A stretch of DNA of 64,000 nucleotides, from positions 34,359,501-34,423,500 of the forward strand of contig NC_091670.1 in the NCBI RefSeq assembly GCF_042453785.1. Direction: 5' to 3'. Positions 10,713 to 61,273 of this stretch are shown piece by piece (position 1 is the stretch's first letter; the number at the start of each line of letters is the position of its first letter). A program made the translations under genes and the position numbers. The notes under the pieces were generated by a model. That model made no database searches. It was not told the DNA's origin and saw nothing but the letters and a program-made list of their open reading frames with translations. Source of the DNA: Malus domestica (lineage: Eukaryota > Streptophyta > Magnoliopsida > Rosales > Rosaceae).

Positions 10713-10864
10713 CACTCTCTCGTCCCTTGTAATTTGCTTAATACTCAAGGCACTGTGGAATGCTAGATACTTTTGAGTTCTGTTTAACGTATTGAAGGTC
10801 AGTGTGAAATGATAGAATATATGTGATCCAGTCACAAGATTTGGAATCTTGTCAACAACTTTCC

Positions 10865-11059
10865 GAGTGAGGATCCGGATCCTCTTTGTGAGGATTTCGG
10901 AAATTCTTAATCACATCCGTTCATCGTACATCATGCGGTTATAAATTATTGTAAATTCCTTTATTTAAAATTAAATATAAACAATACTTGATAAAAATTA
11001 ATCGCACGATATAAGATGAACATATGTGATTAAAGGATCGTCGGATCCTCTCCTCACTC
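10865..11059. mobile_element. 195-bp MULE-type MITE with 9-bp TSD
   Basis: Termini are GAGTGAGGATCC at the left and the inverted GAGTGAGGA at the right. The element is flanked by perfect 9-bp direct repeats CAACTTTCC at 10856-10864 and 11060-11068. The halves are roughly inverted (GGATCC, TTTGTGAGG, CACATCCGTTCATCGTACAT and their complements). A second member lies at 38120-38333. A 9-bp TSD is characteristic of Mutator-like elements. Confidence 0.8.
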
Positions 11060-39666: not shown

Positions 39667-41163
39667 TGGGGAGCAAAGAAAGCCACATCACTTAGAATGA
39701 CACCCCCTCGTACCTAGTGCGAAGCAACGAAAGAATGAACAAAAGAAGTTTGCTCTTCAGGTTAAAGTCGATGAGCTGGAGGCTCAAAACAACAAGATAG
39801 TGATAAAGAATGAGATCCTCCAAGAGCAGTATGAGAAGGTCTTCGAGATGCTCTACAAGGCTAGATATACTAAAACACACGAGCTCATCACCCTTGTGGA
39901 AGTCAACCATCAACTGGGTGCCCCCCAACACGAAGGGTCATTTGCCCTCGACATGGGTATTCCTTTAAGGAACGAGCTACTTATCGAAATGGCGACCAAC
40001 ATAAGACTTCTCTCAACCCAGCTACTTCGACCCAAAGCAGGAAAAGTGAAGGAATGCATCTCCTTACAGAAGGAGTAGAAGGATCGAAAGTCGTCTTTGA
40101 CGACTGTCGAGACTTCCTAAAGCAACGTTGAGACAATCTCATCCATGTAAGCTCAAAGATCAATGACCCAAAGGTCTCTGAAAGACTCGGTCCCCTCCCA
40201 TGTCCTAGGCTGGCTACCAATTTGGGGAAGAGGTAACAAGTCCTAGAGAAACACGAAGGTATATGAGACTCAGAGATGTTCCGACAGACATACCTTGGAA
40301 GTCAGTACGGCGAATCTAGGGAAAAATCACATGCTCTTGATTAAGCCTTCCTACTTCCAAGAGAATATGGACATTTAAGAAAGAAAGCTTTAGTGGTACA
40401 AGACTTCACTCATGACCCTCTTGTCTTATAGCTCCTTAAGGAAGTAAACAAGGTGAAGGCCGAACGACAAGCTGAGATACCTGATTGGAACTAACCTAGG
40501 CCTGGCCTTCTTACAAGAAGGATCATCGACACCCCCTCCAAGCAAAGACAAAGCAGAAGCTTGGCTTGCAACTCTATATTGTTTGTTTCTCAACACATTT
40601 TCTAGACCGATCGCTTGCACTATGCAGATGACTTGTACACTATTCGCCAGAAGCCAGACGAGTCATTACGTATGTATGTTGGCCGCTTCAGCCATGAGTA
40701 TTCTCGTTGTGCCGAGGCAAACAACAAGATTGCCTTTAAAACCTTCACGGTAGGCCTATGTGACTGTTTCTTTAAGTATATGATCAATGCCAACACTTGG
40801 AAGACTTACTCTGAGGTGATGGTGCAGGTTTATAACCATGCATCCGTCGAGGTAAGGATATACCAAGAGAAACCCCCAACAACCATCCCCTATCAGCAAG
40901 TGAGGAATGGAAGCCAGACCAGCCCAAATGAGAAGACCTTAACCTTCTAAACTGCAGCGGTGCATCCCCTGCCTTACTTAATACTTTGCCAAGTCAACAA
41001 ACATATCAATCTCAGGGAAAAAGGAAAGATTTCCATCTTCACCAGTTCCATTTTAGTAAAAGGAGTAAGGGAGACTACCGCGATAACCAAGAGTATCGCC
41101 ACGATAATCCCTGACCCCAGGCAGTCAACACAGTGGGTCAACCACATGTCAGGACATGCCCTA
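39667..41163 (+). pseudogene. Tat Gypsy gag, 5' part, degraded
   Basis: Gag begins MGSKESH at 39667 and is broken by stops and frameshifts. Recognisable blocks: IVIKNEILQEQYEKVFEML (coiled coil), RQKPDESLRMYVGRFSHEYS followed by IAFKTFTVGL (retrotransposon gag domain) near 40650-40760, and GDYRDNQEYRHDNP with QAVNTVGQPHVRTCP near 41070-41160. One stop there (TGA at about 41112) fits a CGA-to-TGA change. The frame stops at the CCCTA duplication where the large insert begins and resumes at 60995. Confidence 0.8.
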
Positions 41164-41570
41164 TGACACGTCCCGACCCTGATATTCTTTGAATACTCGG
41201 ATAGGCACGTGCTGGCCAACACCTGAGGGTGACGAAAGCCATTTATTAATTACAAGAGTGATGATTAGGAGGAAATATTCATGAATAATCATTAGAATCT
41301 AAAAGTAATAAGCAAAGTTTAAGGAAGTATCTAGAGTGCATAGAACACATTCTAAAACAAAAATCACTAAAGGAAAGATCATTACAAGATATCACACAAG
41401 TGAGTGATAGATTACTATTGGTAGGGGAATGCCTTATACGTCGCGTTGTAGTCCTCGTTTCTAAGACCTGAATGGAGGCACAAAACAATGGTGAGTAGAC
41501 CAAGTTCATATATACAATAATAATTAAACAATTATCAAGATACTAACTCCCACAGTTTATATAAAGAAAA
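41164..41570 (-). mobile_element. Tekay-type Gypsy LTR, distal segment
   Basis: The segment runs from the LTR terminus (complement GGGTCGGGACGTGTCA) to the GAAAA target duplication at 41566-41570, where a solo LTR is inserted. It continues at 58457. Total LTR length without the insert is about 2.06 kb. Confidence 0.65.
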
Positions 41571-41719
41571 TGATGCGAAATTTATGTTGACACACAAATT
41601 AAACCCTATTTGTGACAATTGTAGTAATGATGTAAGTAGGAATCGTTCTAACCGGGGATTAACTAGGGGTGCTAATCTAATATAAGTTGATTTAAAAACA
41701 CAAAAACTAAACTTAAAGA

Positions 41720-43535
41720 TGTTGGAAATGTGCCCTAAAGCCAATCATGTGATGATACTTTACGGACATTTCACATGTTAAACTAATCTAGTTTTACATA
41801 TAAAGGGCAAAGATTATTGTTTGAGCCGTCTCATATAAATGTTATATGCTTAAACGATAAAGTCCAAGGAATATGTGATTGGGAGAATGTAATCTAATGA
41901 AGTTAGATTCATGAGACCATTCTTTCGTAGACACATCCTAAATGTTCCTGATCATAGGATTGTCAATTGGGCATTGACAGTCCGTTAAGATCGGTACGTA
42001 CTATGTCTTCTCTCAGGGAGAGTGATTAGTCTCGAGTCATTGGTGTGTGTGACATCAAGACAAGTACGTAGGTGCTCAATAGAGAATGAGTACACTGAAC
42101 GTGATCAACGAAGAGTTCTCATATTCCATGTCACATAAGAACTCATGGTTGGGATAATGCAAAGTAGTAATTTGACCTAAGGCATCACAGTTGTCTTGTG
42201 GTTAAGTCCTTGATCTTTGATTATGTCAAAGTCACCCCCTCGGGGTGTCCACGGCATCGTTGGGGTCAAGTGACTTAGCTATGGAGACAAGTGAATGCGC
42301 AACAAGGGATCTCTAACCTTCAAACAGTTGAGGGAGAATACTCTATGATATGATTTAGAATCTCTGGCCAGAGTATGAATGAGATTAGGGAATGCGTTCC
42401 AAATCACATTCAAGTAAATCATATAAGCACAAGATTCACATTGGATAGTAGACATGAACAAATAAACTATCAAACCAAACAATGTGGTCAAGAGTATTAG
42501 ATTAGAGAAAGACCGTATTGCATTTGTAATCCCGAACTGAATAGGTTCTCTAACCTCTTCTGATTAGCTTGGGTAACCATGACATGCTGCTAGGTGTCAA
42601 CCATGGTTTGTGGAAGCCCTAAACGTGTGTAATCACTAAAGGGAGAATTGAAAATAGTTTCAATTCACAATCGATGTAAAATGGTTTTAATCGCCCACTA
42701 CCTCGCTAAAAGGAACCTAATGGATCGCACACCATAAAAGGTAGAGATTGGAGATTAAACGGAAATGAGTAAGAATGATTAAATGGTTTAATCATTTATT
42801 TATGGCAAGGATTAATTAATATGTTAATTAATCAAACGAATAAGTTCGTTAAAGACTTCGGGATAGTTTTGGACCTTAAGGCCCAATGGGCTTCGAACGT
42901 CAAGCCCATTAACTTAAGTTGTATGACAATTTAATGAATAAAGATTCATTAAAGCCCAAAAGCCCAAAAATCCCAATATGGCCGGCCATAGTGTGATGAA
43001 TTAGGGTTTTGGTTATGTAGGTCACTTAAAGAAGTGACTATATAAATGACTTTATAGCCAAATATTCATAAAGGATTAAAAGGGTTTATTTTTGGGGAAA
43101 ATTGGTGAGAATTGTCTCTCCATTTTCTCTCTAAAGAGGCCAACACCTTGGAGGGTACATCTAGCAATCCTAACAACTCCAAGGTCACTCATTTCTTCTA
43201 CAATCTAACCTTGGTGAAGAGACTTAGAGGTTCTCAATTTTGGGAACTTGGAGAACCTATTTTTCCATCCAAATCCATGGATCTAAGAAGCAAGGAATGA
43301 AGGCCCTATCTCTTTGGGTGATTAGCCTTTGCTTATGCAAAGAGGAATCCACAAAGGTAAAAATTTCAACTAACTTTGTTTTGAGTTGATTATTGGTTCA
43401 CCAATCTACTAGGCTTTGAATTTCATGGTAATGTTTTGTTTTTGGGTGCATACAAGCATGATTCCACCTTTAATTGTTAATTGCATGCTATATGATGTTG
43501 CTCAAATGAACATGTTTTTCAAAATAATTCCTTCA
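41720..43535 (+). repeat. 5' LTR of the Copia-type element
   Basis: 1816 bp, TG...CA ends. Contains a possible transcription start region after a TATATAA-like motif near 43040. A 62-codon frame (43112-43300) recurs in the 3' LTR only because the LTRs are copies and is not a gene. Confidence 0.85.
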
Positions 43536-43537
43536 AG

Positions 43538-43550
43538 TGGTATCAAGAGC
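43538..43550 (+). other. Primer-binding site (initiator Met tRNA type)
   Basis: TGGTATCAAGAGC immediately after the 5' LTR matches the usual Copia primer site, with one extra A compared with TGGTATCAGAGC. Confidence 0.75.
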
Positions 43551-46500
43551 CTAGGTCTAGTAGTTGGTGAATCCTTTTGGGTTTTGTAGTTCATAAGTTT
43601 ATGATTTAAAAATTGTAATTGTTACAAGCTTTATTCTTGCTTCTTTGAATTAAATTTTGTTTGAAAATTTGCCATCTCAAATGTTGTAGATGTAGTTCAT
43701 ATGAGGATGAATATTGGAGCTAAAATTTGGTGCCATGATTTTGGGGATTTTCGGCCAAATCCAAAGGGTGATTTTTTGGGTTCATGTTTGTCTTGTTAAA
43801 AGTGTTTTAAGGTGACTTTTGTAACCCCTAAGTACCCTAGGATGTTAACATCATTTTGAATGGTGAAAATTTGAGTTTTATGGCTTGAAAACATTCATGG
43901 AGCTCTTATGGGTTTTCATGGATGTTCTTCATTGTTCTTGATGTTCTTGCCAAGAACTAAAAGGTTTTGTGTTTTGATTCAAAGTTTTGATTATTTCATA
44001 AAGTTTATGTTATATGTTTTTCAAATGATTTATCATATATTTAAAATATTAGATATTTGATTAAATAGCAAAAGAAATATATATCATCATTATGAAAGGT
44101 AAAAGAAAAGGTGATAAGAATTTCTTTTCTTATGCACCACTTGAATGTTTTTGACAAAACTAATAAATCAAAACACACACCACACCTTTTATCCCTAAAT
44201 GGCCGGCTACCCTATTAAAATAGGGTATTTTTGGGGCTTTTATGCAATTACATAAAGTTTTGATACTTTTGTGTATTTGTACTTTGACCCGAAAGTTTAC
44301 GTTTTGACGTTAAGGCCTAAAAACGCTAAAGGACAAATTGTTTTGCTCCTTTAATGAAGTTTTGAGTTTATTTAAATTTTGGGTTCTAGTTGTATTTACA
44401 TGAAGTAGTGACTTTTGTGTTTTTACAAAGTGACCCCAAAAGTTTATGTTTTCGCAATATGGCCCAAAAAGTTGTGGTTATTGCATGATGGCCCAAATAG
44501 GATGAGAACAAAATTGTTTTGTCTCTTTAAATGAGAATTGGATTTTCATTTTGTTTAGCTCCACTTAAATCAATTTTATGGATACAAAATCCAAATGAAA
44601 ATGTTGCATTCAATTTAATTAGTTAAAATGTTAATTAATTAAAGGGTGATTATGAACCTAAGCCTAATATAATTGAGCTATGTGAAAGGCGTTTCAAATT
44701 TGTTTGAACCATGGGAATGTGTAGATTAGATTTTGGTTGTAATTTGATTTGATCAAATGTTGTAAAAGGGCTTAAGCTCTTCTTTACTTTAAAGTAATTT
44801 GTTATATGCAAATGTTGTAATGAGCATAAGCTCACCTTTACTTTGAAGTACTTCTTTCTTGCTTTATTTGATATGCATGAAAAGGAAGTAATTGGGTCCA
44901 ACGCCCCTATGACAACACGCCTTAATATGATTAAACGCGTAATTAAAATCAATCTCCATCCCTAGACCGAGATTCAACACAAGGCTCGTGTTGAATCTAA
45001 ACAAAGGTTCATAATCATCCTAAGGCCCTAAGGCAACTATATAGTCCATCAAATGAAAGCAAACCTTATGTTAGTAGTAACATATACTCTTGCTTTAAAA
45101 ACCGTTTTAAAAGCATAGTGGGAGTATTATGTACAACTAAAACAATCAAATGGACCAATAGTTGTAAGAGGACCAAAATTGTTTTAATAGAGATTAAAAT
45201 GAATGTTTATATGTGATGAGACCTAAAACCCTCAACCAAACCAATATTAAGTTGATAAGCGGAGAGTGCTTAGAACACTCTTTCGTGGCCTTCCACCGTG
45301 GTAGGCTTCAATCGTGTGTGACTCATACACCGTATTCGTCCAATTCTGGGGTTGCAAAGTATGTGCTTACATTCAGGAGAAGCCTATACACATATGATGA
45401 AGTGAAAGGTAGGCAACGAGTGTGGCCAATATGGAGTTCTTCTGAGGCCATTCTTGAACCCCTACTTGAACTAGCATGGTGGGAATGACTTAACTAAGTG
45501 CAATAGTGCCAATATGGAGTTCTTCTGAGGCATCATTCTCTAGAGGCCAAACGAGATGGGTACTTGCATTAGTTGCAAATGAGTAAGCGTACTCTCTCAT
45601 TATTATTGTTGCTAGCCAATATGGAGTTCTTCTGAGGTGGGCTTGGTAATAGTGAGCCTCCCATAACCTACTAGGAGTTTCATCCAAAACTCTCGAATTC
45701 CAATGAGGGATATGGAATTTGCCAAAAATAGTAGGTGGTGCTATTTGATTTAAAGACCCTGAATCAAATGGCTTAAAATCAATCAATTTATATTCGTTAT
45801 GTATTTGATTACCAATATATTTGCAAACGCTATCCAACACTTGACAAAACCGAACGTTTAGTTTACGGACTTGGTACTACAAAACCATAGATTGTCTTTA
45901 ATGGCTTGTAAAAGTACCAAAGTAGTCTCATCCTCACAATCTTCCTATTGATAATGTATCATTAGAAGAATATGTTAGAAAAGGTCTATCATAAAGAGGA
46001 CAACACTTTTAATGTCATAATTCTTCAATTACAAATTGTTGTATGAAGAAATAGGAGTTGCTTTGAACAACCCTTAGTCAATGCAAACACTTAGTGCTTG
46101 TTTCTTTGTTACATGAACAAGGAACTTGAGAAGAAAGTACAAAGGCATGGACACTTTATGTGCCATGATTCTTCACTTACAATTTGTTGTGTGAAGAAAT
46201 AAGAGTTGCCTTGTACAACTCTTTAAAGTTTGTAATTATGTTTAGAACATAATGGTTGGTTGACAAAAATAGTCCATTAACATGGATTTATAATGATTTT
46301 GAATCATTAAGTGTTGAAGTGATAAAACCACTTAATGAGACGGAAACTAGGCAAGGACTTCACCTTTGTTTCCTTATCCTAATCGTTCACTAAGTTTATT
46401 GTAAACTATGTAGTGAAAAATAACCACATGCTCTCCAAAATGTTTGATGTGTATAACACAATTGAAAAAGGTTTCAAGAGAGATAGTGGGAGTTTAGGGA

Positions 46501-47679
46501 CCATGACTATTGTAGTCAAAAGGAGACGTCAGATAAAGAAGATAAATAACTCCAAGGGAACAAACTTTCTTTATGAAAGGATGGATATTGGAAGGGGTAT
46601 TTGCAAGAAATGTATTGCAAGTGTCAAGGACACACCTTTCGAAAGGTGTTGTAAATTGTTCTTGAATAGTTCAAAACAGTTGGTTCTTCTACTTGAATGC
46701 TTGATTCTGTATTAGTAACTATGTTTTACAAATCGTTGTAAAAGTGTGACTAATAAGAAGTAGAAGATATATGAGAGAAGAGAAAGTACTTCACATTCGG
46801 AAACGTGAATCAAATATAGATCTCTGCGAAAGCAGATGGTACTTACTTCCTCATATGAACTACCAAAGAAATTGGAAAAACATAGATTGTCTTTATATTC
46901 CAATTTTAAGGAACTAAATTCCGTCACTATGTGAAATGGATAAATGTTTTGTTTGACAAAACAATGTTCTTTATTAATCAATGATTGGATTATGGTAATC
47001 TAATTAATTGTCTCTATAGTAGAGATAATATGGTAGTGTTAACTGTTTAGAAAATAATGATGCTTAAAACCCAAAAGGTTGCAAGGTAGTGACTAATCTC
47101 AACTAAAGTTGTGATACCTCTAAAACATAAATTACGAGTTGGTCATAAATGGACGCTTTGGATCGTTAGATCCGGATCCAATACCTTCTTGTTAAAATTG
47201 TATAGAGGCGAAATGTTCGAATCTTTATTCTTTTGGAAAGAAGAAAGAATCACAAAGTTGTTGAGGTTAATTCACTTAAATGTTAGTGGCACTTGTCCGC
47301 AAACATAATATTACTCATGTTGAATAACATTCACCGAAGATCACTCTCGGTTGGACTATAGTTTATTTTGAATAAACACAAGTCCGAATACTTTGCAAAC
47401 TATTTCAAAGAATTCAAGTAATGTAAGTTGATGAGTAAGACATCTAAAGTATTTACCTCCTTAGATTTGATCCAAGAAAGGTAACACTTTAGATAAGTTT
47501 CCTTGAAAGATATCAAGGAAAATAGCATCATAAGATAATATATTTCTCCATTAGGAGAAGAACGAACTCGAATAAGATTTAGTTCGTTAGATGTTATCTA
47601 TTATCCATATATAGGATATATACTTCTAAAACAATATGATTGTCAATGAGAAGATCTTCCAATATTTTCATGACTCCAT
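43551..47679 (+). other. Non-coding interior of the Copia-type element
   Basis: About 4.1 kb without a recognisable gag or protease; frames are short and interrupted. It contains three copies of a 23-bp motif (45425-45637). Small frames at 45213-45488 and 46413-46715 show no family I can name. Confidence 0.6.
45425..45637 (+). repeat. Three dispersed copies of a 23-bp motif
   Basis: Identical 23-bp copies beginning GCCAATATGGAG and ending TTCTTCTGAGG lie at 45425-45447, 45508-45530 and 45615-45637, spaced 83 and 107 bp. The intervening sequence is not similar. Confidence 0.85.
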
Positions 47680-49420
47680 AAGATGTAGTTGGAAAGAAAG
47701 ACAAATCTTAAGCATGTTAAGATTTGGGGTTGTGTGCTAATAAGCAATATTTGTTAGATAACAATCTTGTAGGATATCCTTAAAATAACTTTTGGATATC
47801 GCTTCTATAAACCAACTAACAAATGTTGTTTTGTTGGGTAGTTCATTGTAATTCTACAATGTGATTTGCCTAAAAGCAAATGAACGAGAGATAGAACTCA
47901 AAGAATGGGTTCTTTGAGAGACAAGAAAGTAATCAACAAATATAACAACCTAGTTCCTATACCACAAGCTCCAAGGTAGTCGATAAGGATTTATAAACCG
48001 TCTCAGTTGAATGGTTTTGAACTTTATGACTACATTGAGTGCATATACGATATATACTCAAGAAAATGGTAAAGTACCATTTGACTCGAAATAATGAAAC
48101 CTTAATAGCTAATTGGTAGCTTAAGGTGACTACAATCAAAGAGAATGGTTGACTTTAAAGGAACCATTTTTGACGTAGTCTTAGTTTCAATTAATTCGAA
48201 GATTGCTAGCTACAACTAAATGGTGATTCAATGTTTTGACATAATATGGGTTTCCGAAACCATTATTGAGATAGTCTTGATAATATATGTCTAAAACTAT
48301 AAATCACAAGACATGTAAGTTGTAGAGATCCATCCATCATGGATCGTAGCAAGTTAGTGGGAGCTATTTGCATTTTATGAGAAAAATGATCAAATCGTTT
48401 GATTTCTCATAAAGATGTAAATGAATCTTTTGTTTACTAGTTTTACAAAAGATTAGTGGGAGTTAATCATGTTCCTAAAATTTAAATATATATGATATAT
48501 TAATTTTGGAAATGAAAAGAATACTTCTTCGTTAAAGTTATGACTTTAATACATTATATGAAGATAGAATGTATATGGGAGATATAGTCTATATACATGG
48601 GATGGAAATCTATAATGATATATTTCATGATATAATTGGATTATATCAATCCCTAATAATAGACAATTGATGCTAGGAAGTTTCTCATATGATGATAAAC
48701 TTCAATAAGAAGGACGATTCTAGTGAGACTAGCAAGTTGCCCTTCTCAAAGGGAATGTACCCTTTGACTCCCAAAGAAATAATGCGTAAATTGAATCCTT
48801 TATACATATGCAGAAAGGTTATTTATGTATTTCATATTGTATGAAAAACATTGATATGAGTTGTACCTAGAACGGTACAAGACGATATCAGTGCAAGCCC
48901 AGGATCAGAACCATGGCAACTGTCAAGTGAGTCCTTAAGTATTTAAGAAATACTAAAGGATAAATTCCTCAAAGATCGAGGAAGAATCAAAGTAATGTAA
49001 TGGAAGCGTAAATGTATTAGATTATGAATCTAATCCATCATTGGATGTTTCTTCATTATGAATGAAGCGATAAACGAATATCTCTTTATTATGACTAAAG
49101 AGATATTTGGATGGAAACATTAAAGTAATGACTTTAGTGTGTTCCATTATGAATGCAAGATATATTGCCATATAGAAGTTTACAACAATGTTGTTTGGAT
49201 GGGAAAGTTCATTTATGAACTCTCTATTCGATTCCAACCAGAAAGTGTATGACACTAATGGGGCGATAGCTCAAGCCTGGGAATCAAGGTCTCATCAAGA
49301 TCCGAACTCAAATGAGAGACTGAACCACATGATTGAGAATCATGTATAATGGTGAAGTCGTTATACTCAAGGTTGCTTCTATGGATAACACATATAGATA
49401 TCCACTGTCTAGGCCTACTA
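47680..49420 (+). pseudogene. Degraded Copia pol (integrase C-part to RNase H)
   Basis: Fragments in shifting frames: KHVKIWGC near 47715 (end of integrase region), SASPGSEPWQLS near 48895, SLSI/KYL-like reverse transcriptase end near 48930, ARYIAI near 49160 and NGAIAQAWESRSHQDPNSNE near 49260 (RNase H), then KVASMDN near 49370 before the purine tract. Many stops and frameshifts make it non-functional. Confidence 0.75.
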
Positions 49421-50699
49421 CTCAGCCATTTATGAAATGACTACAGAAGAGGTATCATACTGATGACCAAGCTGATTGGCTCTAGTGCAAGTGGGAGATT
49501 GTTGGAAATGTGCCCTAAAGCCAATCATGTGATGATACTTTACGGACATTTCACATGTTAAACTAATTTAGTTTTACATATAAAGGGCAAAGATTATTGT
49601 TTGAGCCGTCTCATATAAATGTTATATGCTTAAACGATAAAGTCCAAGGAATATGTGATTGGGAGAATGTAATCTAATGAAGTTAGATTCATGAGACCAT
49701 TCTTTCGTAGACACATCCTAAATGTTCCTGATCATAGGATTGTCAATTGGGCATTGACAGTCCGTTAAGATCGGTACGTACTATGTCTTCTCTCAGGGAG
49801 AGTGATTAGTCTCGAGTCATTGGTGTGTGTGACATCAAGACAAGTACGTAGGTGCTCAATAGAGAATGAGTACACTGAACGTGATCAACGAAGAGTTCTC
49901 ATATTCCATGTCACATAAGAACTCATGGTTGGGATAATGCAAAGTAGTCCTTTGACCTGAGGCATCACAGTTGTCTTGTGGTTAAGTCCTTGATCTTTGA
50001 TTATGTCAAAGTCACCCTCTCGGGGTGTCCACGACATCGTTGGGGTCAAGTGACTTAGCTATGGAGACAAGTGAATGCGCAACAAGGGATCTCTAACCTT
50101 CAAACAGTTGAGGGAGAATACTCTATGATATGATTTAGAATCTCTGGCCAGAGTATGAATGAGATTAGGGAATGCGTTCCAAATCACATTCAAGTAAATC
50201 ATATAAGCACAAGATTCACATTGGATAGTAGACATGAACAAATAAACTATCAAACCAAACAATGTGGTCAAGAGTATTAGATTAGAGAAAGACCGTATTG
50301 CATTTGTAATCCCGAACTGAATAGGTTCTCTAACCTCTTTTGATTAGCTTGGGTAACCATGACATGCTGCTAGGCGTCAACCATGGTTTGTGGAAGCCCT
50401 AAACGTGTGTAATCACTAAAGGGAGAATTGAAAATAGTTTCAATTCACAATCGATGTAAAATGGTTTTAATTAGGCCTGGCAATTCCTGACACGACCCGA
50501 TAACCCGACACGACACGACCGGAAATTAACAGGTGTTTGAGTCGACACGATAACGAATCGGGTATTATCGGGTAACCCGATAAGCACCTGTTAAGATAAC
50601 GGGTTGGTTCGGGTATACACGTGGGTAACACGATACACGATAAGCAGAATATTAATTTAATAATTTTATAACCCTAAAAAATACTATAATAATTATATA

Positions 50700-50883
50700 T
50701 ATTAATTTAACAATTTTATACCCCTAAAAAGTTTAAAACTATAATAATTATATATATATATATATATATATTAAATTTTAAATTATATTTTATACCCCTA
50801 AAAAAACTATAATAATTATACTTACAAAATAAATAGATTTAAATTTACATAATAAATAAATAAATATATATATATATAAGAAA

Positions 50884-50910
<27 letters not shown>
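50700..50910. repeat. AT microsatellites and short tandem units in hAT 5' region
   Basis: Two imperfect copies of a TATACCCCTAAAAA...CTATAATAATTATA unit and several (TA)n runs (about 50746-50771, 50864-50910) lie between the subterminal motifs and the 346-bp array. Nothing coding. Confidence 0.7.
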
Positions 50911-50915
<5 letters not shown>

Positions 50916-50917
50916 CA

Positions 50918-52275
50918 CACCATTGAACTTGATGGGATACACGAAACTAACTTCAACGATCAAACCGTCAAACTTGTTTGTATATGCTTCGAGATCGCAT
51001 ATGCCAAAAATCACAAAAAACAAACATTCACAGATCAAGTAATGAGACAAAACTTTTCGACGGTTATAAAACAAAAAATCACGATTTAACGGTTATTTTA
51101 ACTTCGATTTTGATGATTTTTTACAACTACACTTGTTGACCCTATACGAATACAATGAATGAATTCGATCGTCAATTTAAAATATTTACACAAGTGGATA
51201 CCACAAAATCTTATGTTATACTTAATGAAAAGTATAAATAAACTCTAAGTGTTAGTGAATCTATCGTTTTGATGGGATACGAACTCTATGAAATTAATTT
51301 CAATGATCCAACCGTCAATCTTGTTTGTATATGCTTCGAGATCGCATACGCCAAAAATCACAAAAAACAAACATTCAGAGATCAAGTAACAAGACAAAAC
51401 TTTTCGACGGTTATAAAACAAAAAATCACAATTTAACGGTTATTTTAACTTCGATTTTGATAATTTTTTACAACTACACTTGTTGACCCTATACGAATAC
51501 AATGAATGAATTCGATCGTTAATTTAAAATATTTACACAAGTGGATACCACAAAATCTTATTTTATACTTAATGAAGGTATAAATAAACTCTAAGTGTTA
51601 GTGAATCTATCATTTTGATGAGATACAAATTCTATGAAACTAATTTCAATGATCAAACCGTCAAACTTGTTTGTATATGTTTCGAGATCGCATACGCCAA
51701 AAATCACAAAAAAAAAACATTCAGAGATCAAGTAATGAGACAAAACTTTTCGACGGTTATAAAACAAAAAATCACGATTTAACGGTTATTTTAACTTCGA
51801 TTTTGATGATTTTTTACAACTACACTTGTTGACCCTATACGAATACAATGAATGAATTCGATCGTCAATTTAAAATATTTACACAAGTGGATACCACAAA
51901 ATCTTATTTTATACTTAATGAAGGTATAAATAAACTCTAAGTGTTAATGAATCTATCGTTTTGATGAGATACAAATTCTATGAAACTAATTTCAATGATC
52001 AAACCGTCAAACTTGTTTGTATATGCTTCGAGATCGCATACGCCAAAAATCACAAAAAAAAAACATTCAGAGATCAAGTAATGAGACAAAACTTTTCGAC
52101 GGTTATAAAACAAAAAATCACGATTTAACGGTTATTTTAACTTCGATTTTGATGATTTTTTACAACCACACTTGTTGACCCTATACGAATACAATGGATG
52201 AATTCGATCGTCAATTTAAAATATTTACACAAGTGGATACCACAAAATCTTATTAAGCGTTAGTGAATCTATATA
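50918..52275. repeat. Four tandem ~346-bp repeats in the hAT upstream region
   Basis: The landmark GAGATCGCAT recurs at 50991, 51338, 51684 and 52030, spacing 347, 346 and 346. Each unit contains TTTTCGACGGTTATAAAAC, GATTTAACGGTTATTTTAAC and TGTTGACCCTATACGAATAC with few differences. The last unit is shortened at its 3' end. It lies 5' of the transposase leader exon. Confidence 0.92.
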
Positions 52276-52936
52276 TTAAATTAAATTTAAAAAATTGGTG
52301 GCCATTAGATTGGCTGAGATTTAATCTCAGCTGTCCATTATGCATTAGGTATTTAGGTTGGACTTTGGAGACTATCCTCTTCTGCTTTTCTCTTCACTGC
52401 CGCAGACAGACCCCTGCTTCTCTCGGCCCTCCCCTGGTTCTCTCTCTGAACTTCATCCTCTTCCGTGTAAGTTCTTTCTCTGAACTTCTCATCTGCCCAA
52501 TATTGTATTTTGTATGTTAGGGGATATTAATATTATACATGTTGTAGTCAATGTCATTGTCATAAAGATTAATATTGAATTGAACAAATAGTGTGGTGAA
52601 TATAAAAAATATAAATAAAGCCCTAGGGTGCCATAAACTTGGTGCTGTTTTAGATGCTGATGGTATATATAATATACCAAAAGTTTGAAGTAGATGCTGA
52701 TGTTTCTTTTTTATATTTCTTGTTGCCTTGATCTGTGTTTGTATGCGTTTGTTGATTTTTATGTGTTTGTTCTGGGATCCCTTTTTTGAAGATGAATTTG
52801 TTATCTTATTGGTTGGTTAAGTAGGGGTTGGTTAGTGATTGTAATTTTCATGCAAATTGCTTAGTATTGTTTGGTAATTTGCAGTTATGTTTATCTAGAA
52901 TTGATAATCTTAGTTTTGTTTTTCTTTCTTAAAGCA

Positions 52937-55202
52937 ATGGATGTTGTAGACCAAGATTTTACAAACCTTAGTGATGGAGGGTCGGTGGAAGTTACAATGG
53001 GAATACAACCTGATCATGAAAGTGAGAATACAGAAGATACAAATACAAGTCCGGTAAAGAAAAAGGCTAGAGTGGTCAAATTAGGTAAGCGAACACTCAG
53101 GTCTCCTGTTTGGAAAACTTTCAACAAATTGACTACTATTTTTGAAGATGGTAAAAGTCGTGCTCAATGTAAAGATTGTAAGAAATTGGTAATAGATGAT
53201 AGTCATCATGGGACGGGTAATATGAATAGACATTTGAAAACATGCCCTGGACCGACTGGTGGATTATTGTCGATGTCTGAATTATGTCCCCAAAACTTTG
53301 ATCCTGTGGTATTCCGAAGCTTATTGGTAGAGGCCATCATCAAGCATAATCTTCCGTTTAGTTTTTCAGAATATGAGGGAATTAGGGCTTTGTTTGCATA
53401 TATATCTCCTGATATCAAGTTACCGTGTAGAAATACAATTAAAGCTTGTGTGTTGAGGATGTTCAAAAATGAAAAACAAAAGCTTCATAATTTGTTAGGC
53501 TCAGTTGAAGGTAGAATTTGTTTGACATCAGACTTATGGACCTCACAATGCACTGATGGGTATCTTGCTCTTACTGCTCATTTTGTAGACAAAGATTGGA
53601 AATTGCATAAAAGAATTTTAAGTTTTTGTCACATGCCTCCTCCGCATACTGGTGTTGCATTATCTGAGAAAATTAATGCATTGGTGACTGAGTGGGGGAT
53701 TGAGAAGAAGTTATTTTCTATTACTTTGGATAATGCTTCTTCAAATATTTCTTTTGTTAGCATTTTGAAGAATCAATTGAATCTTAGAAGTCTTCTTGTG
53801 ATGAATGGTGAGTTCTTTCATGTGCGTTGTTGTGCTCATGTTTTGAATTTGATAGTCCAAGATGGACTTAAAGAAATTGATTCTTCGGTGATAAAGATTC
53901 GTGAATGCATCAAGTATATAAAGGGCTCTGAGGCTAGGAAACTAAAGTTTTATGAATGTGTTAGACAAGTGGGAATATTGGATAGTAGGAGAGGTTTGAG
54001 ACAAGATGTCCCTACTAGATGGAACTCAACCTATATTATGCTAGATAGTGCAATTTTCTATCGATATGCTTTGATTCATTTAGGGTTGAGTGATTCCAAT
54101 TTTAGTAGTTGTCCTTCTTCTGAAGAGTGGGATAAAATAGTGAAGATTTCCAAGTATTTGGGGTACTTTTATGAGGTTACATGCTTATTCTCTGGGACAA
54201 AGTACCCCACATCAAATTTGTTCTTCCCTAAGGTGTTCGTAATCCAACTTCAAATTAAAACAGCCATGAATGACTCTGAAAGTTTCATGAATAAGATGGG
54301 GACTTGCATGTACATGAAGTTTGAGAAGTATTGGTCAGAGTACAGCTTGATTTTGGCAATTGCAATCATCTTAGACCCTCGTTATAAATTGCATTTTGTG
54401 GATTGGGCTTACACAAAGCTTCATGGTGTGAATTCGGTCGAATTTACAAAGGTTAATGACAAATTGAATGTTCTTTTTGGTGTGTACTTGGAAAAACTTT
54501 CGCATCTTGATAATTCAAATACTCCAGTGAATTCAATGCCTAATCGTCAAACAAAATATGGAGATGTTCTCTTTGAGGTAACATAAGTTTGTTTTTATTT
54601 ACTTTATATATTTGTAGTAGTAGTACTATGATGCATGATTCTTATTACGTTTTTCGTTTTTGTTTTTTATGATGTAGGATTTTGATAATAATTACGATGG
54701 TTCAAGTTCGATTGAAAAAAATGAGTTGCAAAAGTATTTGGAGGATAAAAGAATAGATAGAAAAGTAGACATAGATGTCCTTTCTTGGTGGCAAAAGGAG
54801 CGTTTTCATTATCCGATACTTTCTCAGTTAGCACGAGATGTGTTAACAATTCCCATTTCAACTGTTGCATCAGAATCTGCATTTAGTATTGGAGGTAGAG
54901 TACTAGATCAGTATCGTAGTTCATTGTTACCAGAAACAGTTCAAGCTTTGTTGTGCACACGAGATTGGCTATTTGGAAAAGGAGGTAATATATTTTTATA
55001 TGGTATAATACTATTGTTTTATTTCTTTTCATAATTATTTTGGTAAACTTCTCATAATTTGAATGGTTTTTAATGTTTGGTTTTTCTATACTTAGTTTAT
55101 GCGGAAGAGAGTTCTGACGTGGAAAACCTTACCGAAAACATCATCAACATAACTCTTGAAGACAATAGATCAAGCCAAAGTTCCAATACAATTTCCCCAT
55201 GA
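52937..55202 (+). CDS. hAT transposase (BED zinc finger, RICESLEEPER-like)
   Basis: CDS join(52937-54577, 54678-54984, 55096-55202) is 2055 nt and 684 aa with no stop or frameshift. A leader exon probably ends at a CCGT|GTAAGT donor near 52468, with an acceptor just before the ATG. Domains: BED zinc finger about residues 50-105 (AQCKDCKK and NMNRHLKTC give the Cys/His ligands), RNase H-like catalytic core with TSDLWTS and ITLDNASSN acidic positions, the DUF4413-like middle (ILDPRYKLHFVDWAY), and a C-terminal hAT dimerisation domain (LSWWQKERFHYPILSQLARD, TVASESAFSIGGRVLDQYRS). The length is normal for plant Ac-like transposases. It catalyses cut-and-paste transposition in the nucleus; activity is untested. 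Confidence 0.9.
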
Positions 55203-55530
55203 TGATTGATGAAAATTGAGGATTTTGTAAAAGAAATAACATGCAAACTTTGAGTTCCATTGACAAGGTTTAAACTTTTGAGAAAGGCTTCACAACCTTG
55301 AAAACAAAAACTCTTTCATTTTGCATATCCTTGCACATTTAATATTTTGTAATATACTAGTGTATGAATGTTTTTTTTATTAGGCTCTTATTTTCGAGTG
55401 CAGATGTAGTACTTAAATGACAAATATGTTTTAATGTTTTGAAGTAATATTTATGTGGTAATGAGTGGAATGTGCAAATTTAAGAAAAATATATATTTTT
55501 CTTAACGGGTCATAACGGGTTATAACGGGT

Positions 55531-55563
55531 CGGGTCACTTTACCCGTTGGGTAAAGTGACCCG
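55531..55563. repeat. 15-bp perfect hairpin near the hAT 3' end
   Basis: CGGGTCACTTTACCC and its exact complement GGGTAAAGTGACCCG flank a GTT loop. It lies ~115 bp from the 3' terminus among ACGGGT repeats, a place where hAT transposases bind. Confidence 0.85.
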
Positions 55564-58451
55564 ACCTGTTAGGACCCGTTAAGATAACAGGTGTGACACG
55601 ACACGACCCGTTAAGATAACAGGTGTTACACGAAAACGACACGAACACGACAGACACGACCCGTTTGCCAGGCCTAGTTTTAATCGCCCACTACCTCGCT
55701 AAAAGGAACCTAATGGATCGCACACCATAAAAGGTAGAGATTGGAGATTAAACGGAAATGAGTAAGAATGATTAAATGGTTTAATCATTTATTTATGGCA
55801 AGGATTAATTAATATGTTAATTAATCAAACGAATAAGTTCGTTAAAGACTTCGGGATAGTTTTGGACCTTAAGGCCCAATGGGCTTCGAACGTCAAGCCC
55901 ATTAACTTAAGTTGTATGACAATTTAATGAATAAAGATTCATTAAAGCCCAAAAGCCCAAAAATCCCAATATGGCCGGCCATAGTGTGATGAATTAGGGT
56001 TTTGGTTATTTAGGTCACTTAAAGAAGTGACTATATAAATGACTTTATAGCCAAATATTCATAAAGGATTAAAAGGGTTTATTTTTGGGGAAAATTGGTG
56101 AGAATTGTCTCTCCATTTTCTCTCTAAAGAGGCCAACACCTTGGAGGGTACATCTAGCAATCCTAACAACTCCAAGGTCACTCATTTCTTCTACAATCTA
56201 ACCTTGGTGAAGAGACTTAGAGGTTCTCAATTTTGGGAACTTGGAGAACCTATTTTTCCATCCAAATCCATGGATCTAAGAAGCAAGGAATGAAGGCCCT
56301 ATCTCTTTGGGTGATTAGCCTTTACTTATGCAAAGAGGAATCCACAAAGGTAAAAATTTCAACTAACTTTGTTTTGAGTTGATTATTGGTTCACCAATCT
56401 ACTAGGCTTTGAATTTCATGGTAATGTTTTGTTTTTGGGTGCATACAAGCATGATTCCGCCTTTAATTGTTAATTGCATGCTATATGATGTTGCTCAAAT
56501 GAACATGTTTTTCAAAATAATTCCTTCAAGAGATTCTAATAAGACTACTATGACTCAAAACAGATTTGAAACACTCAAAACTGCCTAAAACAATCAAATT
56601 GACTCAAAAAGAAACTAGAACTTGATTTGGACGAATTTGAAAGTGTTTATGACTCCAAATGCTTCAAAACACAAAATAAAACAGATTTGAATGACTAAGA
56701 TTCAACAAAATATGGGGGGATTGTGTTTGGACGAAATTAAATTAAATGGGCAGATTGTAAGACAAAATTGTGATGAATCAATGGATGATGGAATAGTTAA
56801 GGGGCTCTTCTCCACACATGAAATATATGCAACGTAAATCAATTTCCAGTTATCAATTTAATAAGTTATGAACCTCGACACTCCAAGTTAATTAGGTCCG
56901 CTTAAATTAACCTTCAGATTTCCCTAGAATCATTGAATTGGATGAATATGCATCGCAAACAAATTATTCCTAACAAGTTCTCTATATGAACAGCATGATA
57001 AAGACACAAGTTAGAATCATTACGTTCTTTGGAAATCATAAGCATCGACAAGACATTTGTAACTATGAAAAGCATGATACTCTTGCCAGGAATCTACTTA
57101 ACACGATCGTGACTAGCGACCTTCACTACTTGCGAATATAAATTCATAACGATTAGGTGAAACAAACTTATATCCTAGCACCAAATTCAAGCATGCAAAT
57201 TAAGCGTGCACTCTCAATCAACATACAAGAATAAGTTCTAAATCAAACGGTTAAGCAAATTGTATTCACGACTTATGCAACGATAACTGGAAGTAATCAA
57301 CTTATTTCACATATATAATCATGGTTTTTAATACACCCTTAGCCAAAACGAATTTAGCCAATCATACTTAAAGCAGAACAAAGATTACATGAATTAGACA
57401 TTGAAATATAAGATAGAATACACCTAAAATTGTTCAACAGCTCAGAATGAAGAGCCAAACAATTGAGTGAATCTGTCCCTTTTCCTTGCTTGCGGCAGAT
57501 TGGGTGTTGATGGTTTCTGGGCTGTTTTGATGATGTAGACTGGATTTTGGGGGGTGTAGAGGCACGGCAAGGGGTGTAGGGTGAGTGTGGAAGAGTGTTT
57601 GATGGTTGGAAGGTGGTGGAGAACTCGAAAAAGAGGGTGGAAGAAGGTGGAGCGGCTGTTTGTATTTTCTGGGCGCCAGAATGGTGTTTTGGCGTGAATG
57701 GTCAGTATATGGATGATTTGTGGCTGCACAGGGATGTTTATTTAAAGGGATTTCAGGAATTAAAACCCTAGGTTAATTAGGTAATCAGAAATTAAGTCTA
57801 AGGCTTCTAGAAATAGGAAACAAAATCAGAAACTTAAGGGAAATTGACTAAGAGGTGCGGCTAGGGTATGAAACATAAAAGGAATGTGTTTTAATTCAGA
57901 AAATAGGAAAGAATCACTCTCCCTTGCACGGCAAGGAAGAGGAAAGGTCAAGGGAGCGGCTGTGATGTAGGAAAGGTGTGGGTGACCTAAAAACAAAGAG
58001 AAAGATGTTCCCTTGCACGGCAAGGGATGGTGAGAAAGGGAAAGGTATGTGGGGTGCGGCATTGATGTAAACCATGCAAGAAATGTGTGCTTGATGTCCT
58101 AGAATACTGAGAAGGCCTTCAAAGTTGATAACACTTAAGGACACTTAGGAAAGGTCAAACCAAAGTAGGAAACCTTGGCTTAACTTTCCTACTTCAACTA
58201 GGAAACCTTGTTCAAGTAGGAATTATCATCTTCAAATCTTCAATTTCTTCCATTCTTTTGGCTCTAAGTATGTGATGTCCAATCCAAGCTCAATTGTGCT
58301 CCAAAAGGCTCCACAATGCATCTTTTTGTATAATATGCCCTTAAAACCTGAAAACACATAAAACTAGCTTAAAAGACTTACTTTAACTAAGGAAAAACAA
58401 TGTAAATGCACAAGAACAAGCTAACTAAGGTGCATAAATATGCCCCTATCA

Positions 58452-60106
58452 GAAAACTACTAACATAATAAGTGATGGTTTTACTGAAAACCCTAGCATG
58501 CCAAAAATATCTCAAGAGACATATCGTGAAACAAAAAATATCAAACGTCTCATAAATCGTCTCGTAGCGCTATGTACTGCTAGTAAGATCACTAAAATAA
58601 ATATATCTCCCGGCCTTATACCAGCACCGTGGTCTCTGTGCCCGTAGCCAGAGATTACCAACTCCCGGGCCAATGCTTGCTCCGTGTCTCTCAGCCCGTA
58701 GCTAGGGATTATTTCTCCCAGCCTAACTGCCAACACCAAATCCTCGCCCCAGGCGGCATAGTGTCTACTAGGTACGCACAAATAGTTACGCCTCTCATAA
58801 ATAGCCACTTCATAGTATAAAGTCATCCATCGTCTATACTATAAAGAAGGGTTTCTAAAACATGTTCCAGCATCCTATCGTCATCCATCAAATAGTCTAC
58901 CAGTTCATGGTTTTTATAAAAATACGATATATCAAACTATAGCTTAATATAGGCTAACAATTAATTCCTCACAAAAAACGAGACGATAAACAACATATTT
59001 CATAAACTTGCTTAACATAAAAATCAGTTCATAAACTCATAAGGCATGCATTTTATTTATGCAATTAAATTAGGAAATTATACAAATTTTAGAAAAGGTT
59101 CACTCACAGATACTCCTTAGCAGTAGAGTTATGCGGATAAGGATTAAGAATTTCCTCACTAGCAACTTCACCTAAACACAAAAAGGTAATAAATAAATAA
59201 AAGGATTTTCTAAAGGATTTGGGCTTGAACTAAATAAAATAAAGGATTTGGGTTGAATGGGTTAAGGTCTAATGGGTTTTAGGATTCTAAGGTTTTGGGT
59301 TAAAAGGGTTTAGGGTGAAGAATGGTGGTTTGGGCTTAAACCCAAACCCACACTCACACACACGCACTGTACACACACACGAGGCATGCACACACACTGT
59401 GCAGCCCAAAACACACACACACACACTTCATGCACATGCACGGACACACACACAACCCACACACATGTACGCATGCACACACACACATGCACATACCTGT
59501 TCACATACATGCACATACGACACTACACACACATTCACACACACGCACAACATACACACACACACGGTACACAACAACACACACACACACCACACATCGC
59601 AGCTCACACCACTGCACACCTATACACGGCACTACCAACAAACAGCAAGGTAATTAAGTACCTGGGTTCGAATTCGAAGGGATCCGTGCACCCACAACAA
59701 TAAACTCGCCGAAGTTAATCATCGGGGAAAGTATGCATGCACAAGCAGTGGATAACAGGGCTAAAATTGAAGGTGAGAGCTCAAAGCTCTCGGGTCTTCA
59801 ATGGCAGAGCACTTGCAGTTGCTCTGATGTTGCATGCAAAGCTGTAGTCGTGTTCCTTATGTCCCAAAGGTTCAAAGTATCAAGATTTGGGGTTAAATTT
59901 GTGAAGGAATGAGCACTGGTGGTGGCTGGTTTCTTTCTCGGTGCCGGAGAGAAAGGAAAGAGAGGGTACGAAGAAATAGAAGGAAAAGATGACTGAGAGG
60001 GAAGAGATAGAAGACTTAGGGGACAAAATTCAGGGGTGGGCCCCTCGGGCTCACCATTTAAAACTAAAAACCATTTTTTAAATAGAAAGTGGGTGAGGTT
60101 GTAACA
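58452..60106 (-). mobile_element. Tekay-type Gypsy LTR, proximal segment
   Basis: Minus-strand LTR starts TGTTACAACC at 60106, preceded by the purine tract GTAAAGGGGGTAGAT (60107-60121). It runs to the solo-LTR insertion at 58452-58456 (GAAAA). It includes a (CA)n-rich stretch. It is the 3' LTR, as it follows pol and the purine tract. Confidence 0.7.
59348..59640. repeat. CA/ACAC-rich microsatellite
   Basis: Interrupted (CA)n with GCACACAC and TGCACATA variants across ~290 bp. It opens long His/Thr-rich frames on both strands, which are artefacts of the repeat. Confidence 0.9.
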
Positions 60107-60148
60107 ATCTACCCCCTTTACAGAAATTTCATCCTCGAAATTGCAAAT

Positions 60149-60644
60149 TTACATGAAAAGAAAAGAATATTGATTCCGCATTGATTCCTCCGTTTCCCAT
60201 GTAGCTTCTTCGACTGCATGGTTCCTCCACAGTACATTTACCAAAGGAATAACTTTGTTCAGCAACACATTATCCTGTCTGTCAATGATAGCCACTGGTT
60301 CTTCTACATAGCTAGCATCCAAATTTACTTCCAATGGTTCTACTTGGATGATATGAGAAGGATTCGGTACATATTTCCGAAGCATGGAAACATGGAAAAC
60401 GTTATGAATTAGTGACAACTCCGGTGGTAACTCCAACCTATAAGCAACTGCACTAATTCTCTCAATAATCTGACAGGGACCGACGTATCGAGGATTCAGC
60501 TTTCCTCGCTTACCAAAGCGAACAACACCCTTCCAGGGAGATAATTTCAAGAATACAAAGTCGCCCACTGTAAACTCATGATCCTTAGAGTGATTGTCTG
60601 CAATGCTTTTTTGTCGGTCTTGTGCTGCTTTCAAATTCGCTTTA
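60149..60644 (-). pseudogene. Tekay-type pol C-terminus (integrase end and chromodomain)
   Basis: Minus frame reads IKANLKAAQDRQKS, HEFTVGDFVFLKLSPWKGVV, RYVGPCQIIERISAVAYRLE and LSLIHNVFHVSMLRKYV (integrase C-terminal GPY/F-type region), then IPLVNVLWRNHAVEEATWE (chromodomain) and ends SFLFM-stop. The rest of pol is absent: the sequence is replaced at about 60645 by Cassandra. The open frame formally continues into Cassandra to 60772, which is not part of the gene. Confidence 0.85.
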
Positions 60645-60994
60645 ATCAGAGCCAATCCCTGGCCGGAAGTGTGCCGACAAGGACGTCGGGCCCCTAAAGG
60701 GGGTGGATTGTAACACCCTACATCACCCAGGGGAGTGATCTTTAAATGTATATTCCCATCCTTACCTAGCACGAGGCCTTTTGGGAGCTCACTGGCTTTG
60801 GGTTCAGTCGGAACTTCGAAGTTAAGTGAGAAGGTGGACAGAGCACTTCCAAGATGGGTGATCCACTAGGAAGTTGCTCATGAGTTCCCAGAAATAAAAC
60901 CGTGAGGGCGTGGTCAAGGCCCAAAGTTGACAATATCGTGCTACGGTGGTAGAGCGGGCCTGTGAAGTGATCTGCCCCTGACCGGAATGTGACA
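60645..60994 (+). mobile_element. Cassandra TRIM: internal region and 3' LTR only
   Basis: Begins ATCAGAGCC, i.e. inside the Met-tRNA primer site TGGTATCAGAGCC, then the short internal domain with GGACGTCGGGCCCC and purine tract AAAGGGGGTGGAT, then an LTR starting TGTAACACCC at 60709 and ending GTGACA at 60994. The LTR contains 5S rRNA-like sequence. The 5' LTR is missing and replaced by the Tekay pol fragment in opposite orientation. Confidence 0.8.
60769..60890 (+). pseudogene. 5S rRNA-like domain in the Cassandra LTR
   Basis: AACTTCGAAGTTAAG matches the 5S rRNA AACTCCGAAGTTAAG core (internal promoter region) with one change, and GATGGGTGA, GGAAGTTGCTC match the 3' half. The flanks match Cassandra, and many positions differ from a functional 5S gene, so this is the TRIM-borne copy. 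Confidence 0.8.
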
Positions 60995-61273
60995 CCCTAC
61001 CCCGATGTATAAGGCATACACACCTTTGAACGCCACATACGTGGCCATTTACCCCAACATAGCACACCTGACACCGAAGCCAAATCTGAAACACCCAAAT
61101 TATACACCCACGAAGAACACAGGCACGTTTTGCTGCTACCATGAGCATAACGGTCATGATGGTAAGAAGTATATCACCCTTCGTGATCATATTGAAGCTT
61201 TGGCATGTGAAGGAAAAATTTATCAATTCTTCCTTCACCCTCTAAAGGGTAACCGTACCGTAACCAACGTCAG
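60995..61273 (+). pseudogene. Tat Gypsy gag, 3' part (zinc-knuckle region)
   Basis: After the second CCCTA the gag frame resumes: YKAYTPLNATYVAIYPNIAH, TKNTGTFCCYHEHNGHDGKK (CCHC-like C-x2-H-x4-H-type knuckle) and ITLRDHIEALACEGKIYQF, then a stop at 61275-61277. The following protease-containing frame is shifted relative to it. Confidence 0.8.

Follow-up and report, generated by a model that had tools for sequence, protein, structure and literature searches.

Misdirected strand transfer, in which the 3' end of a cDNA is misplaced, gives rise to deletions and palindromes in retroviruses. A misplaced 3' end is also proposed for the locus described here. The retroviral cases concern a single retrovirus in cell culture, whereas this locus involves a TRIM and a Gypsy element in the germ line.

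Among LTR retrotransposons, the closest described systems are the template-switching complexes of the Triticeae (Sabot and Schulman 2007, PMC1950507). There, as is proposed here, two packaged templates were fused in reverse transcription and entered in one integration, leaving flanking 5-bp repeats. The Triticeae complexes are dimers of close relatives with a common middle LTR and highly similar outer LTRs. The apple locus does have the 5-bp target-site duplication, but in place of a third internal LTR and similar outer ones there is one Tekay LTR and one Cassandra LTR, opposed to each other. At this locus a TRIM faces an unrelated Gypsy element head to head; both sides of the fusion end in a U5, and there is no 5' LTR.

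Cassandra is a TRIM that is widespread in vascular plants. Template switching has been proposed as one origin of its tandem arrays (PMC7215508, 2020, in the excerpt available); in these arrays Cassandra units follow each other in tandem, unlike the head-to-head fusion here. The same excerpt calls the autonomous partners of Cassandra unknown. Which autonomous elements move TRIMs is also the question of a 2016 survey (PMC4717578). In the portion of it that is available, partners come from sequence similarity and not from joint insertions, larger relatives are given for 11 of 289 subfamilies, and no partner is named for Cassandra.

The insertion and its target site

The window is the whole 64,000-nucleotide stretch of the apple (Malus domestica) genome that was analysed. 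Its features are collected in Table 1.

Table 1. Features of the insertion, its flanks and the later insertions within it (positions in the window)
Feature	Position	Strand	Remark
Left target-site duplication, CCCTA	41159..41163	.	
Outer left terminus of the chimera, U5 end of Tekay-type 3' LTR	41164..41570	-	colinear with C4 copy L039
Later nested insertion, LTR-like TG...CA unit	41571..58451	-	GAAAA repeats at 41566-41570 and 58452-58456
LTR retrotransposon inside that TG...CA unit	41720..56528	+	LTR 41720-43535; 3' LTR split; flanks AAAGA/AGAGA
hAT transposon in 3' LTR of the nested retrotransposon	50472..55676	.	8-bp repeat GTTTTAAT
Remainder of Tekay-type LTR (U3 side)	58457..60106	-	LTR start TGTTACAACC on minus strand
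Tekay polypurine tract	60107..60119	-	AAAGGGGGTAGAT on minus strand
Tekay pol C-terminal part, 5' truncated	60149..60649	-	integrase end with SH3-like domain PF24626, and following sequence
ATCAG common to both partners at the joint	60645..60649	.	
Cassandra primer-binding-site remnant, internal region and polypurine tract	60645..60708	+	remnant ATCAGAGCC
Cassandra 3' LTR (286 bp), U5 end being the outer right terminus	60709..60994	+	with 5S-like stretch
Right target-site duplication, CCCTA	60995..60999	.	fits host gag

The first-pass annotation described a 19.8-kb insert, a chimera of Tekay and Cassandra integrated as one unit into a Tat gag gene and flanked by CCCTA. The single unit is supported, and CCCTA was found on both flanks. 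The size is not: the original chimera is about 2.9 kb (41164-41570 plus 58457-60994), and the remaining 16.9 kb was added afterwards by a nested insertion.

For random pairs of 5-mers drawn from the window, the match rate is 0.0014. The CCT codon lies in one frame, that of gag, at both 41160 and 60996. It had been claimed that removing the insert with one CCCTA restores this frame exactly. Locally the frame is indeed kept across CCCTA, though the copy of gag that serves as host is old and degraded, and further frameshifts and stops interrupt it elsewhere.

A comparison found 26 apple gag relatives, 11 of which were read. Six of these 11 cross the site, going from the left-flank motif (VNTVGQ-like, then VR) to the right-flank motif, and the remaining five either begin no earlier than the site or have a different sequence on its left. 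In place of CCCTA, five of the six have PT (P0122, P0123, P0124, P0126 and P0128) and the sixth, P0125, has LS. Because most site-crossing relatives have PT there, the right-hand CCCTA is most plausibly original to the host. At the protein level, then, the host relatives agree with the earlier reading that this CCCTA is no coincidence.

The left terminus is the U5 end of a Tekay-type LTR, as had been supposed: in a genome copy this same end is followed by GATTGGTATCAGAGC, which is a primer-binding site. The window contains PF24626, marking a Gypsy pol with the SH3-like domain at the C-terminus of its integrase. The chromodomain PF00385, carried by several of the 120 listed homologs, was not found in the window's Tekay piece, and a scan of viral contigs found no relative of the piece. 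It is without reverse transcriptase, and is taken here to be Tekay-type.

At the right terminus stands a Cassandra LTR, in the opposite orientation and with its U5 end outward. This end is seen in other copies, which run from ...GATGTGACA through a short spacer into TGGTATCAGAGCC. The tRNA-Met site TGGTATCAGAGCC and a polypurine tract between the LTRs, both from copies, and the short LTR of the window all identify Cassandra. The LTR also has the 5S rRNA-like promoter stretch of this TRIM: its local alignment to a plant 5S sequence scored 33, while the best of 300 shuffles reached 29; a search of Rfam at E up to 1 over 60600-61100 gave no match. The tRNA-Met primer site is identical in Cassandra and Tekay, and the polypurine tracts and LTR tips of the two are alike.

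The joint was placed by where genome copies of each partner begin or end matching. Tekay homology stops at 60648-60649, in integrase, in 36 of 40 other matches. On the Cassandra side, all 39 other matches begin at 60645, which is within the primer-binding site, as first noted; the first four bases of TGGTATCAGAGCC are missing. Both elements are cut upstream of the joint.

An ordinary nested insertion would be one complete element with both its LTRs between the repeats, and this is not what is found. A self-comparison of the window gave no second copy of either outer LTR. With two opposed U5 ends, neither element alone explains the duplication, in line with the earlier reading.

Six further composites

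The same architecture occurs at six more places, where identical 5-bp repeats enclose two outward-facing U5 ends, one from Cassandra and one foreign. The window event is thus one of a recurrent class, which refines the first reading of it. The repeats are TTAAC (C4), TGCAA (C17), CAGAC (C14), ACAAG (C3), TGAAT (C13) and TCAAT (C6); in C3 the match requires a mutated first Cassandra base, AG for TG. Downstream of 14 heterologous primer-site joints, 0.15 exact repeats at U5-like ends would be expected by chance and 3 were found. C3 was added to those 3 by relaxing the Cassandra start.

In C4, C17 and C14 the partner matches Tekay by BLAST. In C6, C3 and C13 the foreign part is an inverted U5 tip of 51-66 bp alone, and the partner is less sure: against Tekay tips, 3 (C6), 1 (C3) and 92 (C13) of 300 shuffles scored as high, so that no partner is assigned to C13. 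The window's own Cassandra sequence gave no match in C4 at E 0.001. The Cassandra end there, 54 bp long, was seen by short-word BLAST against other copies (best E 3e-12).

C4 and C17 came from a query ending at the joint, and the others from a pattern for Tekay-type spacers. As query and pattern steered the sampling, a frequency of composites is not derivable from these numbers. Cassandra-centred samples gave no further Tekay joint in 7 cases with 1.5-kb flanks, nor in 32 within 427 bp 5' of the primer site. In these samples one Cassandra is fused to a Copia-like LTR at the primer-binding site.

Several candidates were dropped. The C17 place near 15749134, with an inverted Tekay pol (L017), is not head to head; its extension is a local inversion plus a truncated LTR. 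Repeat matches at L086 and L092 (exact) and at L089, L092, L099 and L042 (one mismatch) are not at recognisable LTR tips. C4 was also considered as a self-foldback of one strand, but its left arm stops at the U5 end, without primer site, gag or Cassandra. This speaks against a foldback even though a tree, with weak support (0.816), groups the two arms as sisters.

The joints of the window, C4 and C17 fall within about 50 bases of each other by hand count. Since the query ended there, an integrase hotspot is suggestive only. An RNA fold of the integrase region (sense strand, without control) gave no lead.

With these places in hand, some other origins can be weighed. Separate Tekay and Cassandra insertions might have been fused by a later deletion. 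In pear (PMC4668562), no LTR element is more numerous than Cassandra, and Tekay is present in 214 copies. Against this stand the exact match of the outer flanks, here and at six more places, the outer ends being U5 ends, and the apple gag relatives that read through the site. This makes a deletion very improbable.

It is just as hard to believe that the chimera is a copy of a chimeric family moving as a unit. Cassandra and Tekay-type partners do recur, and five other composites have the primer-site type of joint, but the sequence beyond the joint differs among composites. In the junction search that had been suggested, the window joint matched itself alone among 40 scored candidates of 2226, and its exact pattern occurs at 1 place. 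Least credible of all is an assembly artefact, as misassembly would not be expected to place exact 5-bp repeats next to the U5 ends of seven different loci.

A proposed mechanism

The favoured reading, held at a probability of roughly 0.8, is that reverse transcription across two elements gave a single product, two minus-strand DNAs linked 3' end to 3' end, whose integration left the insert. That it integrated once, head to head and by its two U5 ends, had been proposed before and is borne out by termini seen in other copies, a CCCTA that fits the host, and the six like insertions.

In this mechanism, Cassandra RNA and the RNA of a Tekay-type Gypsy element would be co-packaged and copied in one particle. 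tRNA-Met would prime each of them, so that either minus-strand DNA begins at the U5 end of its element. In Cassandra, the minus strand would then reach its own primer-binding site, where its 3' end would be GGCTCTGAT... Using the five shared bases CTGAT, this end would join the minus-strand DNA of Tekay at the integrase gene and be extended along Tekay up to the 5' end of that strand, which is the Tekay U5 end. The resulting duplex would have a U5 end on each side and so would not need the second strand transfer. An integrase, probably that of Tekay, would insert it with a 5-bp duplication.

In 7 of 7 cases, the window included, the foreign part goes exactly as far as its own U5 end. This points to a second, separately primed strand as the template. 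Had one strand folded back on itself, copying would have continued across the primer-binding site and into Cassandra, so a self-template is disfavoured.

Two incomplete linear cDNAs could also have been joined before integration by microhomology-mediated or non-homologous end joining, with no switch by reverse transcriptase. The joints are compatible with that: only five bases are shared in the window (ATCAG), and about 3-6 in C4 (about ACCAA) and C17 (CAA). In C17, C14, C13, C6 and C3, though, Cassandra runs through the shared primer-binding site into the foreign U5, which is what a switch between homologous templates predicts, and every foreign piece ends at a U5 end. End joining is accordingly considered unlikely, if the least unlikely of the alternatives. 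Taken by itself, the window joint looks the same under a template switch and under end joining of two cDNAs.

A candidate partner of Cassandra

A wider reading is favoured by a narrow margin. It is that Cassandra is copied and integrated in particles of Tekay-type Gypsy elements, and that the genome holds recurrent Cassandra insertions which skipped the second strand transfer. A Gypsy minus strand with a primer of its own, in some cases just its U5 tip, would have been joined on to supply their missing second end, and they would so record the autonomous partner. A Tekay-type Gypsy element is a candidate for that partner. The Cassandra-Copia fusion and the steered sampling count against Tekay being the exclusive one.

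Evidently, a product that lacks a 5' LTR and has a U5 end on either side can still integrate and leave a normal 5-bp duplication. Where two elements were copied together, a fused insertion remains as the physical trace, and counts of such insertions could thus suggest, from genome sequence alone, which element partners a TRIM.

The insert and its host gag

The first-pass annotation described a 19.8-kb insert in a Tat Gypsy gag, with CCCTA on both sides and the gag frame preserved across it. Both repeats are present (see table), and the CCT codon of gag lies in one frame on the left and right of the insert. Whether the right-hand CCCTA is a coincidence was checked on relatives of the host element. 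A search with the right-flank gag gave 26 proteins, all from Malus domestica, and 11 of these were inspected. Six span the site from the left-flank motif to the right-flank motif. Given that five of these six have PT at the CCCTA position (the relative P0125 has LS), the CCCTA on the right fits the sequence of the host element, as far as protein relatives reflect it. The other five inspected begin at or after the site, or diverge left of it.

The CCCTA-bounded span stands, but its size does not apply to the chimera. The remainder is a nested unit splitting the Tekay LTR, and with this removed the original chimera measured about 2.9 kb. Both Tekay LTR halves are colinear with the copy on contig C4. 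Within the nested unit, the hAT element sits inside an LTR, which makes the LTR repeats appear interleaved. Elsewhere in the window, long open frames at 5305-7380 and 8940-10910 (a PPR-repeat protein and an amino acid permease) are apparently host genes.

Features of the window and of the further composites
Feature	Position or locus	Strand	Details
Target-site repeat	41159-41163 and 60995-60999		CCCTA
Left terminus of insert	from 41164		reads TGACACGTCCCGACC
Right terminus of insert	to 60994		ends GGAATGTGACA
Nested unit splitting Tekay LTR	41571-58451		GAAAA at both edges
LTR retrotransposon within nested unit	41720-56528
hAT element in 3' LTR of nested retrotransposon	50472-55676		8-bp repeat, PF14372, TAGGCCTGGCAA terminal repeats
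Tekay pol piece	60149-60649	minus	PF24626; closest relatives Malus proteins, at most 86% identity
C4 composite	C4:30724428-30731184		TTAAC before Tekay U5 end (left) and after Cassandra end (right)
C17 composite	C17:16384182-16388123		TGCAA both sides
C14 composite	L085		repeat CAGAC
C3 composite	L087		repeat ACAAG; first Cassandra base has to be taken as mutated
C13 composite	L099		repeat TGAAT
C6 composite	L102		repeat TCAAT

The joint

The genome searched comprises 651 Mb in 19 contigs. On the Tekay side, 40 of 385 candidates were scored, with 41 matches. Excluding the window, Tekay homology ends at 60648-60649 in 36 of 40, at 60646 in two, and earlier in two, one of them C17. On the Cassandra side, the best 40 of 2226 candidates were scored, and all 39 non-window matches begin at 60645. 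Because these two limits overlap at 60645-60649, the bases there, ATCAG, are common to both partners.

In 28 Tekay copies, with the window and C17 left out, the joint bases are ATCAG (4), ATTAG (17), and ATCAA or ATCAC (7). The four with ATCAG represent three places (L011 with L036, L014, and L018). Past the joint position, the 28 copies continue as Tekay sequence. The window's Tekay piece reads ...GLALIKANLK, its relatives ...NIQLIKANLK or nearly so. Seven Cassandra copies have ...TGACA (or a variant), a brief spacer, and then TGGTATCAGAGCCA.

A check for other copies of the junction found the window alone: it is the sole match to the whole joint among the best 40 of 2226 Cassandra candidates, and the exact pattern, with a non-T preceding the Cassandra site, occurs at this one place in the genome.

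Further composites and the sampling behind them

In seven insertions the U5 end of Cassandra faces outward on one side and that of a foreign element on the other: the one in the window and those on contigs C4, C17, C14, C3, C13 and C6. No description of a joint Cassandra-Gypsy insertion was found in titles and abstract openings among the matches listed, a scope that does not extend to the Cassandra study in pear (PMC4079214) or to the first report of Cassandra (PMC2311327).

The C4 composite runs from a Tekay U5 end through Tekay to integrase, turns head to head, and continues from integrase to LTR, primer-binding site, gag and 54 bp of Cassandra LTR end. The window's Cassandra sequence gave no match at C4 at E 0.001; other Cassandra copies match the 54-bp end (best E 3e-12). 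The C17 composite starts with Cassandra minus strand from the U5 end through the primer site, followed by Tekay U5 and LTR, a turn into integrase, and the other U5 end. At C17:15749134 (L044, L017, L045) there is a truncated copy with an inverted Tekay pol segment.

A pattern leading from Cassandra, by way of its primer site, to a tip reading TCTGACA occurs at 552 places with up to 3 mismatches (control 0). Many among the roughly 100 matches listed are ordinary Cassandra. The 23 loci inspected, of which L082 and L094 lie in one array, comprise 14 with a heterologous U5 tip, 8 with Cassandra's own LTR, and one odd case (L093). At least four of the 14 have identical 5-bp repeats outside the Cassandra and foreign U5 ends; 0.15 exact matches are expected by chance in the 14.

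BLAST identifies the tip as Tekay LTR in L080, L084, L085 and L098. The foreign piece in C3, C13 and C6 consists of no more than an inverted U5 tip of 51-66 bp. Shuffles scoring as high against Tekay tips number 1/300 for C3, 3/300 for C6 and 92/300 for C13. Because of these scores, Tekay is weakly supported as the partner in C3 and C6, and is no more than a possible partner in C13. The L085 and L089 tips do no better than 1/300, the L083 tip is unlike Tekay (267/300), and the remaining eight of the 14 outscore 300/300. At L080, L084, L086, L088-L092 and L098, the primer site links a Cassandra internal region to a Gypsy-like LTR tip; these are possible hybrids whose 5' LTR comes from Gypsy and whose 3' LTR comes from Cassandra.

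Sampling of composites was steered toward Tekay. Of 28 other Tekay places taken with 1.5 kb of flank (L010-L038, where L011 and L036 are a single place), two, C4 and C17, are Cassandra composites. A fragment of Cassandra LTR lies downstream of integrase in L022, and L010, L012, L015, L029, L032 and L033 break off upstream and are continued by sequence belonging to neither Tekay nor Cassandra. In Cassandra-centred samples, Tekay sequence is absent from 7 copies taken with flanks of 1.5 kb and, in 32 further copies, from the 427 bases 5' of the primer site. A Cassandra LTR directly adjoins the primer site in 30 of these 32 by script, and also in L062, where the LTR end is below the script limit. 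L076 has a Copia-like LTR end in its place, so that Cassandra has also been joined to what by eye resembles a Copia LTR. L079:4461-4622 (C2:10894960) has, by eye, a Copia-like LTR end at the primer site and then the Cassandra internal region; its Cassandra LTR halts where the 5S-like stretch begins.

How the strands may have been joined

Minus-strand DNA of LTR retrotransposons starts at the U5 end adjoining the primer site. That the outer termini are U5 ends, as claimed for the window, was borne out there and in the six further composites: on both sides, all 7 end in this minus-strand start type. In C4 and the inverted-tip cases the last piece halts at the U5 end, without continuing into primer site and Cassandra. 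The template was therefore a second, separately primed strand, as opposed to one strand folded back on itself.

Over few hand-typed positions in few copies, Cassandra agrees with Tekay at 8-13 of 14 PPT positions, 8-9 of 10 at the LTR start and 6-9 of 11 at the U5 tip, and with the window's Copia-like element at 8/14, 4/10 and 3-4/11. In three composites (window 60600-60650, L039 5230-5320, L042 7158), the switch points in Tekay fall in a stretch of about 50 bases of integrase close to GGATACCA, a sequence similar to the 3' end of tRNA-Met. Query bias is a possible cause of this clustering.

Two routes are proposed. In the window, the Cassandra 3' end would have joined directly to Tekay minus-strand DNA via a few shared bases. 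In C17, C14, C13, C6 and C3, it would first have used the shared primer site to move onto partner RNA, with the partner's minus strand as its next template. In C4, the Cassandra strand apparently quit its own RNA within U5 and continued along Tekay gag.
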